Below, piece after piece: positions 6,644-54,682 of a DNA stretch of 64,000 nucleotides. A program made the translations under genes and the position numbers. The notes under the pieces are model-generated. The model worked only from the letters and a program-made list of their open reading frames with translations. It did no database searches and was not told the DNA's origin. Positions within the stretch are counted from its first letter, which is position 1. Every line of letters begins with the position of its first letter. The stretch is from Bacteroidota bacterium (lineage in GTDB: Bacteria; Bacteroidota; Ignavibacteria; Ignavibacteriales; Melioribacteraceae), in assembly GCA_021801605.1 (NCBI GenBank), contig JAJYXU010000062.1:1-64000 (forward strand). Reading direction: 5' to 3'.

Positions 6644-7972
6644 ATGAAAAAATATTATTACAAATGTTTCGATTGCGGAAAGAGTTACGACAAAGATGAG
6701 ATTGAAAAGGATCTGGTCTATCTTTGTCCAGCTTGCCGTAAAGTTGAAAAGAACCAGCCGTTGCGCGGAGTTCTTCTTATCGAGTATGATTATGAATGGA
6801 TTAAAAAAAATCATACAAAAGAGGAATTCCTAAAATTATCACCCGGAAAATTTTGGCAGTATGGTTATTTATGGCCGCTTGAGTTTAAGTCTTGTCATTC
6901 TGAGGAACAGAGTGACGAAGAATCTCATAAAAATAAAGATAGAGATTCTTCATTCGTCCTTTCAGAACTCACTCAGAATGACATGAATAAAATTTCACTT
7001 CCTTCAGATTGTTTTCTGAAATTTACTTTCGAAGGGAATAACTTTTTTGTTCTTGATGATACTCGCAATCCAACCTTATCGTTCAAAGACAGAGCTTCAA
7101 GTTTAGTTGCTCTTAAAGCCTTGCAATTAGGAATAAAAGAAATTGCCGCGGCATCAACCGGCAACGCTGGATCTTCTCTTGCCGGAATCTGTGCAAGGTT
7201 AGGATTGAAGTCGGTAATTTTTGTCCCCAAAAATATTCCTGAAGCAAAAAGGATTCAGATTCAATCTTACGGCGCTGATATCTTTTTGGTTGACGGTGAT
7301 TATGATTTGGCTTTTGATACATGTCTTGAAATCTCAACTCAAAAAAAATGGTACAACAGAAACACTGCTTATAATCCTCTTACTATCGAAGGAAAGAAAT
7401 CCGCAGCTTTCGATCTATTCATTTCAACTAATGGAAAAATGCCAGATATTATTTTTGTGCCAACTGGAGACGGAGTAATTTTAGCTGGACTTTACAAAGG
7501 TTTGTGCGAACTTAAAGAACTTGGATGGATAGAAAAAATCCCTTCATTAATTGCGGTTCAGGCAGAAGGTGGTAATGCGGTTGTTAGATATTTAGCGGAT
7601 CAAAAGTTTGAGTATAAACCGGCAAGCAGTATTGCGGATTCAATCTGCGCGGGCTCTCCAAGATGTTTATATATGGCTTTCGACGCCATAATAAAATCGA
7701 ATGGCAGTGCGATTGAAGTGAGCGACGAAGAGATTCTGGATGCTCAAAAATATGTTGCTCAAAATTATGGAATTTTGTTGGAACCCTCTTCATCGTCAAC
7801 ATTTGCCGCATATAAAAAATTCCTTAACTCAAATAACTTGAATGGAAAAACAGCGCTTTTACTTTTTACCGGTAATGGGTTAAAAGATACATCAGCGCTT
7901 AAATATTGGAATCATTCTGTTGAGGTTTTGACAACAGAGCAGATTTATAAAAAATTTAATTCATCTATCTAA
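6644..7972 (+). CDS. Threonine-synthase-like PLP enzyme with an in-frame repeat insertion
   Basis: A fold-type II pyridoxal-phosphate enzyme of 442 residues. The N-terminus is a zinc ribbon (CFDCGKSYDKDE ... LCPACRKVE, residues 8-38) as in many threonine synthases. The PLP lysine lies in LSFKDRAS near residue 147, the phosphate/substrate loop is ASTGNAGSS near 170, and a glycine-rich VPTGDGVILAGL lies near 275. In E. coli the PLP enzyme of the matching cluster is YgeX (diaminopropionate ammonia-lyase); this protein is more like threonine synthase, so it may do an analogous elimination or simply be ThrC. Residues ~84-113 (HSEEQSDEESHK...) are encoded by a 89-bp palindrome and do not look like enzyme sequence. 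It follows ygeW in the same direction and precedes a MocA-like gene. Confidence 0.85.
   Translation: MKKYYYKCFDCGKSYDKDEIEKDLVYLCPACRKVEKNQPLRGVLLIEYDYEWIKKNHTKEEFLKLSPGKFWQYGYLWPLEFKSCHSEEQSDEESHKNKDRDSSFVLSELTQNDMNKISLPSDCFLKFTFEGNNFFVLDDTRNPTLSFKDRASSLVALKALQLGIKEIAAASTGNAGSSLAGICARLGLKSVIFVPKNIPEAKRIQIQSYGADIFLVDGDYDLAFDTCLEISTQKKWYNRNTAYNPLTIEGKKSAAFDLFISTNGKMPDIIFVPTGDGVILAGLYKGLCELKELGWIEKIPSLIAVQAEGGNAVVRYLADQKFEYKPASSIADSICAGSPRCLYMAFDAIIKSNGSAIEVSDEEILDAQKYVAQNYGILLEPSSSSTFAAYKKFLNSNNLNGKTALLLFTGNGLKDTSALKYWNHSVEVLTTEQIYKKFNSSI
6894..6982. repeat. Palindromic repeat inserted in frame inside a coding sequence
   Basis: GTCATTCTGAG (6894-6904) is perfectly mirrored by CTCAGAATGAC (6972-6982), and an inner pair GAAGAATCTC (6917-6926) / GAGATTCTTC (6942-6951) is also perfect, so the unit folds into a long hairpin. 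A second member of the family (GTCATTC ... AGAGATTCTTCATT ... GAATGAC) lies in intergenic DNA at 36779-36867. Here the element is translated in frame as roughly CHSEEQSDEESHKNK plus a second acidic half. The surrounding enzyme frame is unbroken. Confidence 0.9.
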
Positions 7973-17478: not shown

Positions 17479-17518
17479 TTATTTGCAGTTAACTCTGTAG
17501 CGATTGACTTTTAATGTT

Positions 17519-17693
17519 ATAGAGGTTGTCTCAAGTAATTATTCAAATAAAAAATCTGCGAAAATCTGTTTACCCCGTGGAATAATATTTTTACCTTTTG
17601 TAATAAATTTAATTATCAATTATTCCACGGGGTGAATCTGTTTTTATCAGCGTTCTATTATTTAAAAAATTTTACTTATGAGACAACCTCTAT
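17519..17693. mobile_element. MITE-like element with 15-bp terminal inverted repeats and a nested second inverted repeat
   Basis: ATAGAGGTTGTCTCA (17519-17533) is perfectly inverted at 17679-17693, and the match extends into AGTAA with a 2-bp gap. Inside, ACCCCGTGGAATAAT (17572-17586) is perfectly inverted as ATTATTCCACGGGGT (17619-17633). The intervening arms carry AATCTGCGAAAATCTGTTT and ATCAGCGTTCTATTA, wording shared with other repeats in the window. There is no coding frame. The element lies between convergent genes, so it may also act as a terminator in both directions. It looks like one palindrome inserted inside another. Confidence 0.85.
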
Positions 17694-17709
17694 TGTTTTA
17701 GAAAGAATT

Positions 17710-36661: not shown

Positions 36662-36695
36662 GAATAAGATCAAGAGCAAGAAATTATTTATAAAG

Positions 36696-36926
36696 GCGGG
36701 TTCTAAAAAACTATCTTTTGTAAAAATTTAACGCAGAGAACCTACCTGCCGGTAGAGTCTGTTGCAGAACTCGAGTATGTCATTCACACTTAAATTTAGA
36801 ATTAGTGCGATTATTAGCATAGAGATTCTTCATTTCTCCGGCTAATGCCGGATTCATTCAGAATGACAAGTTCTGCAACACGCTCGGTAGGCAGGCGCAG
36901 AGAATATTGAGGTTTTTAGAACCACC
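36696..36926. mobile_element. Nested inverted-repeat element (at least four palindromes inside each other)
   Basis: The outermost pair is GGTTCTAAAAA (36699-36709) / TTTTTAGAACC (36913-36923). Inside, the 9-bp CGCAGAGAA occurs directly repeated at 36732-36740 and 36896-36904, flanking a block that opens CCTACCTGCCGGTAG and closes CGGTAGGCAGG. Inside that lies GTTGCAGAACT (36761-36771) / AGTTCTGCAAC (36869-36879), then GTCATTC (36779-36785) / GAATGAC (36861-36867), then the hairpin CCGGC-TAAT-GCCGG (36838-36851). The outer element has an apparently simpler copy at 50235-50339, and the GTCATTC layer matches the repeat at 6894-6982. No gene is encoded. Confidence 0.88.
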
Positions 36927-37002
36927 CTAAAGTAAAAAAAGTTTTGTTTTTAATCTTACTCTTACCCATAATCTTTTTATTAACAACTAACCGGTGAGAG
37001 TT

Positions 37003-50234: not shown

Positions 50235-50339
50235 TTAAGGGTGGTTCTAAAAACTATCTTTTGTAAAAATTTAACGCAGAGAACGCAAAGAATATGCAAA
50301 GTCCGCAGAAAATATTGAAGTTTTTAGAACCAGACTTAA
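50235..50339. repeat. Inverted-repeat element, apparently simple copy (TTAAG...GGTTCTAAAAACT / AGTTTTTAGAACC...CTTAA)
   Basis: GGTTCTAAAAACT (50243-50255) is perfectly inverted at 50319-50331, with TTAAG/CTTAA as an outer pair. The interior reads TATCTTTTGTAAAAATTTAA then CGCAGAGAACGCAAAGAATA. The first ~45 bp match the left end of the element at 36696-36740 almost base for base, and the last ~25 bp match its right end, but the palindromic inserts of that copy are absent. It begins 3 bp after the T9SS protein's stop and may affect mRNA 3' ends. The remaining gap to mgtE holds no gene. Confidence 0.88.
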
Positions 50340-54512: not shown

Positions 54513-54682
54513 ATCCCCGCTTTAGGGGCAATGCTGTCAGGTTAAGGGAGCGAATAAAGAAAAATGGTAAACAATGGAACGCTGATAACGCAGATCGAGC
54601 GGATTTTCGCAGATTGATCAGCGTTAAATCAGCGTCATCTGTGTTCTATTTAATCTTAGGGTGACAGCATTGCGCTTTAGGC
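54513..54682. repeat. Inverted-repeat element (GCAATGCTGTCA / TGACAGCATTGC) with nested ATCAGCGTT core
   Basis: GCAATGCTGTCA (54528-54539) is perfectly inverted at 54662-54673; the flanks CCCCGCTTTAGG and GCTTTAGGCGGG extend the similarity. Inside, AACGCTGATAACGCAGATCG and ATTGATCAGCGTTAAATCAG form a second inverted pair, followed by GTCATCTGTGTTCTATTT as in other repeats. This fills the gap between enolase and the glutamine synthetase gene and holds no gene. Confidence 0.85.

Follow-up and report, generated by a model that had tools for sequence, protein, structure and literature searches.

The window, a 64,000-nucleotide stretch of Ignavibacteriales DNA, carries two repeats with common ends, one of them simple and the other with further inverted repeats lying inside one another, which raises the question of how such a nest is built. 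The sequence-only reading of this DNA had suggested successive insertions of different small elements into one another. Target duplications, copies of each layer in this genome and its relatives, and the orthologous site of a sister species have been analyzed, and we consider it quite likely that the locus is a stepwise nest of small non-autonomous elements, made by transposases, in which one layer (C) was targeted to a palindrome.

Results

Layout of the composite locus

The genome (G000) is a 3.24-Mb assembly of 189 contigs, and many of its relatives are fragmented too. Stretches of about 770 kb of this genome and about 650 kb of G006, a sister species of the same genus, were examined, with whole-genome searches added; apart from those of A and C, the layer counts are partial. 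Misassembly is a risk in repeats rich in hairpins and may account for apparent flips (L204/L205) and unequal flanks (L010).

Both loci proved to be copies of one element, A, as their common ends had indicated. The simple copy of MITE A occupies 97 bp at 50,239–50,335 (+ strand), between TTAA at 50,235–50,238 and TTAA at 50,336–50,339. The composite (36,695–36,927, + strand, as are all its layers) consists of MITE A, of which 78 bp are left, and a nested insert of 155 bp. Its terminal inverted repeats lie at 36,695–36,712 (left, GGCGGGTTCTAAAAAACT) and 36,910–36,927 (right), flanked by the 4-bp target site duplication (TSD) of A, TAAA, at 36,691–36,694 and 36,928–36,931. Inward from the left end, an internal tandem unit of A, CGCAGAGAA (36,732–36,740), adjoins the left part of layer B (36,741–36,754), a CCTACCTGCCGGTA/GGCAGG 20-bp palindrome, and this part ends in four bases, GGTA, that form the TSD on the left of layer C. 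The 131-bp element C (36,755–36,885) has the ends GAGTCTGTTGCAGAACT and AGTTCTGCAACACGCTC and is followed by its right TSD, GGTA (36,886–36,889), the right remainder of B, GGCAGG (36,890–36,895), and a second CGCAGAGAA unit of A (36,896–36,904). The innermost layer, D, is a GTCATTC...GAATGAC palindrome within C (36,779–36,867), with an imperfect palindrome, CACTTAAATTTAGAATTAGTG, in its loop (36,787–36,807) and a perfect hairpin, TCCGGC-TAAT-GCCGGA, in its right arm (36,837–36,852).

The extra inverted repeats of the 36.7-kb copy are nested, as previously described, but they are not all perfect: the long arms are imperfect (78% complementary for the 27-nt arms, 84% for the 19-nt arms), and only the short ones, GTCATTC/GAATGAC and TCCGGC-TAAT-GCCGGA, are perfect. 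The single-strand fold of the composite is much better than that of 200 shuffles (z = -5.8), and its centroid places the arms of A, B, C and D within one long nested hairpin, which is there because of the layering and is no evidence of function. The Rfam and ARAGORN scan of the window detected tRNA only, with no structured-RNA family matching the element. The copy has decayed, with a 20-bp deletion in A and a 27-bp deletion in the left stem of D relative to other C copies. A 29-bp stretch adjoining the CACTTAAATTTAGAATTAGTG palindrome occurs 19 times in the genome. A palindrome similar in kind to layer D, GTCATTCTGAGGA...TCAGAATGAC, stands alone at 6,893–6,983 of the window and differs in length from its counterpart in G006.

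The outer element A is a MITE

The ends of A follow the pattern GGGT[AG]GTTC[TC]AAAAACT, and about 65–70 copies were detected in this genome, 97–98 bp long with 17-bp ends (92.6% paired cells over 34 distinct copies). With up to 2 mismatches allowed, the genome (3.24 Mb) contains 139 matches to the end pattern, whereas the reversed-pattern control gave 5 and 2; the pattern is rare in other genomes of the genus, and the public genome collection returned only two matches, a groundwater Ignavibacteriales MAG and a Bacteroidetes MAG. An exact 4-bp TSD at AT-rich 4-bp insertion sites was found in 50 of 69 rows from this genome and its relatives (mean 9.7 and maximum 17 in 1000 trials with randomly re-paired right flanks), and since these rows include a few spurious regex pairs (e.g., L173, L105, L020), the true fraction is somewhat higher. 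A therefore has terminal inverted repeats and a TSD of constant length, and is dispersed as 97-bp copies that are too short for a transposase gene of their own, as is typical of a MITE. The layered structure is far beyond chance.

The direct repeat CGCAGAGAA had been read as a 9-bp target duplication, and this reading has to be given up. The repeat belongs to the A body, as a degenerate tandem unit (CGCARAGAA) that is present in dozens of insert-free copies, which read ...TTTAACGCAGAGAACGCAAAGAATACGCAAAGTCCGCAGAGAATATTG..., and the nested insert lies between two such units. Compared with other copies, the one at 36.7 kb lacks 20 bp of its A body on the right of the insert, and this loss brought an identical CGCAGAGAA unit to the other side. 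The real duplications at the locus are TAAA around A and GGTA around C.

We also observed an A copy within the signal-peptide region of a TPR-like gene (contig C35, L177:12235–13010) in which the reading frame is kept. This copy is 98 bp long and adds 102 bp with its 4-bp duplication, while the 97 bp of most copies would shift the frame; the gene is present in G006 without the A insert.

The composite is absent from the orthologous site of a sister species

The precise empty site that the sequence-only reading proposed to look for was detected in G006, whose sequence at the orthologous interval, ATTTA-TAAAGTAAA, contains a single TAAA; the whole composite is cleanly missing, and the flanks are near-identical to those of the window except for a 12-bp flank repeat. 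Another A copy (C35:12260) is cleanly absent from G006 as well. For the 50.2-kb copy no clean empty site was found, only the downstream gene being common to G006 and others. Insertion of the composite, or of a still uninvaded A, would have followed the split of the lineages; alternatively, the element was lost tracelessly in G006, but the single target copy there fits insertion better.

Layer B enters A at one position

B is a 20-bp palindrome without a loop, CCTACCTGCCGGTAGGCAGG. It enters a fixed sequence within the unpaired middle of A, with no evident target duplication, and the same nucleotide carries B in six A copies, five of which carry C too. The sixth (C148, L023) holds unsplit B alone, CCTACCTGCCGGTAAGCAGG. 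Outside A, B was detected in G006 and other genomes (G006 contig C92, L078, L101, L195 and L206), being unsplit in few places, and in L206 it exactly occupies the centre of the palindrome TTGTAGGGGACGAA...TTCGTCCCCTACAA. The halves of the A copies in L003, L004 and L023 best match uninserted members of their own A subfamily (1.0 for the left and 0.96 for the right half in L003), suggesting that the insert reached several A subfamilies.

Insertion sites of layer C are enriched in palindromes

The ends of C are GAGYSTGTTGCASAAC, its length is 107–176 bp in most copies, and at least six different interiors were found; the end gave 40 matches in this genome and none for the control. In the window, C splits B at GGTA, which stands on both sides. 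Of the C sites with both flanks available, 34 in all, 18 had exact 4–5-bp TSDs (1000 shuffled trials gave a mean of 3.2 and a maximum of 9) and 16 had none; related hosts and an orthologous pair (L011, L120) are among them, so the independent events number fewer than 34. Like A, C thus combines terminal inverted repeats with a short target duplication, as expected of a MITE, and the duplications show that the insertion of both elements is of the transposase type. The duplications flanking C are direct (TACC/TACC, TGTC/TGTC, CGTCC/CGTCC) rather than inverted, and so are unlikely to belong to the C ends.

Most C hosts have the form CCTGCC-N4-GGCAGG, with N4 duplicated beside the centre; in a 17-bp variant host, CCTGCCGGACGGGCAGG, it is the 5-nt loop that is duplicated (L016, L068), and other C copies lie in palindromes unrelated to B (L011 with its G006 orthologue L205, and L219). 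When the empty sites were reconstructed, a palindromy score of at least 7 of 8 was found in 47%, compared with 3.3% for sites drawn at random from that DNA. Of 294 genomes of the class, 20 contain exact C ends, in a patchy distribution; a single genome has as many as 50 matches, the control almost none, and the host context there is the same. The best reading of these sites, in this and in other species, is that C prefers palindromes as targets, so the proposed targeting of palindrome centres holds for C (beside the B centre, or in the 5-nt loop) but not for A or B. Since many C sites share the same CCTGCC/GGCAGG, recognition of the sequence and of the hairpin are inseparable in these data.

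The C tree is star-like, radiating from one master sequence, and the A-hosted C copies form no clade in it, which argues for repeated arrival. The L006 copy of C, in an A host, pairs in its variant with the L017 copy, in a non-A host, and the TCCGGC-TAAT-GCCGGA hairpin of D is replaced in both. At the locus that G000 contig C11 (L204) and G006 contig C14 (L205) have in common, with the same TGAA duplication, the C interior is oppositely oriented, a difference that may reflect either a true inversion or the assembly.

Search for autonomous parents

Paired A or C ends 0.6–4 kb apart in the first stretches of this genome revealed no autonomous element, and a search of about 1.4 Mb, taken from this genome and from G006, for paired GGGT/GAG ends accompanied by a 4-bp TSD and an ORF found none either. 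No A or C ends surrounded the genus's genes of DDE_Tnp_1 (PF01609), the one family searched, and inspection by eye of the ORFs beside single C ends at 11 loci detected no transposase. These empty searches are tempered by the tendency of short-read assemblies to end at insertion sequences present in many copies, and by the position of several A and C copies at contig ends.

Other small elements nearby and in relatives

The orthologous A copy at about 1190–1305 of L205 (G006 C14) contains three extra 21–22-bp inserts with no target duplication, each consisting of a pair of small hairpins (such as TCACAAAGTGATGGCTATGCCA), and related inserts were seen in L129, L142 and L143. Such 20–22-bp inserts differ between G000 and G006 orthologues. 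They were considered as bacterial double-hairpin elements, but this architecture showed no excess over dinucleotide shuffles in G000 intergenic DNA, and the inserts are noted here as a side observation.

In the window, a MITE with ends AGAGGTTGTCTCA at 17,518–17,700 contains a nested ACCCCGTGGAAT...ATTCCACGGGGT palindrome, which a copy at about 9111 of L148 does not have, and an insertion of about 146 bp with ends GCAATGCTGTCA...TGACAGCATTGC at 54,526–54,672 is missing in G006. A family of 24–34-bp near-perfect loopless palindromes (GTAGAGAC...GTCTCTAC) occurs at L165:8660–8816, L178:8159–8188 and G006 C92:17233–18374. A sister MITE family with ends GGGTATCTCTAAAAACT was found in L124–L127, L129 and L134, several of its copies holding nested palindromes.

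Discussion

The layers of the 36.7-kb locus occur apart from one another (A alone in dozens of copies, A with B but without C in L023, B alone, and C elsewhere with its own TSDs), as expected from successive insertion of different small elements. The empty site and the TSD suggest that MITE A would first have entered a 4-bp AT-rich site, duplicating TAAA. B would then have inserted into the middle of A between two CGCARAGAA-type units, as the observed junctions suggest, with no evident duplication. Finally, judging from the TSD statistics and from unsplit B, MITE C with its palindromic cargo D would have landed beside the centre of B, duplicating GGTA; this step was probably targeted, with C recognising palindromes of the CCTGCC...GGCAGG type by their sequence or as an extruded hairpin. 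We infer that A and C were moved in trans by two different DDE-type transposases of unseen parents. The composite may also have moved as one unit, the second and third steps being carried in with A.

The finding of B at the same nucleotide in several A subfamilies, with C variants that do not follow their host, favours recurrent targeting of A by B and C. The alternative that deserves most attention, possible and in our view unlikely, is that B and C spread between A copies by gene conversion (e.g., in break repair after hairpin cleavage) and not by repeated insertion. It would explain the identical junction in every A host and could use the flanking homology common to all A copies, and the C interior flipped between the sister species suggests that recombination in such palindromes may occur; however, this homology is just about 45–52 bp per side, and the variant shared by the L006 copy with the non-A-hosted L017 copy, like the lack of an A-hosted C clade, speaks against it.

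A more general proposal is that in these bacteria ultra-small (20–22 bp), TSD-less mobile palindromes serve as landing pads for hairpin-recognising MITEs, so that nesting would be directed by structure and not by chance; we regard it as speculative and rather doubtful.

Two further explanations are improbable. B and C might form one unit with longer ends (CCTGCCTACC...GGTAGGCAGG), inserting between CGCARAGAA and CGCAAAG with no pad B involved, as the occupation of the same nucleotide in several A copies and the CCTGCC/GGCAGG arms on many C copies outside A would suggest. This reading is already largely refuted by the existence of unsplit B (L023, G006 C92, L078, L101, L195, L206), by C in unrelated palindromes (L011/L205, L219) and by the direct orientation of the 4–5 bp adjoining C. 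Similarly, a hairpin-driven replication error (template switching) in place of transposition could produce nested palindromes; B and the 20–22-bp G006 inserts without target duplication, and a C interior that can flip, agree with it, but the exact-length duplications of A and C are well above shuffled pairing, and near-identical copies of both are dispersed at unrelated loci. Descent of the simple A copies by deletion from an ancestral A+B+C composite is highly improbable: shared descent could explain the same insertion point across A subfamilies and palindromes are prone to deletion, but dozens of simple copies are intact and uniform across the insertion point and would require repeated scarless loss, the junction offers a direct repeat of just 1 bp to guide slippage, composites nest inside several subfamilies of simple A, C variants are independent of these subfamilies, the inner layers do have independent copies, and no alignment was found in which the 36.7-kb copy is ancestral and the 50.2-kb copy a deletion. 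Stepwise insertion remains the preferred explanation.

The insertion sequences IS1397 and ISKpn1 target REP palindromes, as do ISPsy8, ISPa11, ISPpu9, ISPpu10, ISRm19 and ISRm22. For the latter six this has been described by Tobes and Pareja (2006, PMC1525189), and C resembles these IS in its strong preference for a small dispersed palindrome, but differs in being itself a tiny non-autonomous palindrome whose target palindrome lies inside a third mobile element. These two features set the present case apart, IS insertion into REPs being already established. A and C resemble prokaryotic MITEs (PMC10969869) in being short and non-coding, with terminal inverted repeats, exact short duplications and many dispersed copies, some copies lying inside coding sequence in both cases; in contrast, no parent transposase was found here, and the layers are up to four deep. 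An IS1111 inserted in the REP of the MITE QMITE2 is described in the same review (PMC10969869), in which the word 'nested' does not occur.

The tiny palindromes of yeast mitochondrial GC clusters (PMC4478555) and of fungal mitochondrial double-hairpin elements likewise merge into larger composites, but in organelles and not in bacteria, and GC clusters have AG or ACT duplications (PMC4478555), whereas B has none. REP/REPIN elements with RAYT (PMC3116915, PMC3733652) are short dispersed hairpins and mostly intergenic, as are the elements here; this assignment was rejected for A and C, whose ends are long and symmetric and are flanked by target duplications.

The products of a single-strand (Y1) transposase would be expected to have neither target duplications nor long symmetric ends. 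The small dispersed repeats of cyanobacteria, reportedly described by Elhai et al. in 2008, are like B and the 20–22-bp G006 inserts in size and apparent mobility, a likeness by description only, and their host phylum differs.

Taken together, the layers have the character of selfish DNA that shelters in repeats already present, and no host function need be invoked. The order of insertion at this locus is readable from solo copies, one intermediate (A with B) and an empty site in the sister species, and C represents a non-autonomous element with a target preference for palindromes in several species of one order. With this locus, experiments can ask whether it is the sequence or the extruded hairpin that the transposase recognises, and by what route TSD-less 20-bp palindromes spread.
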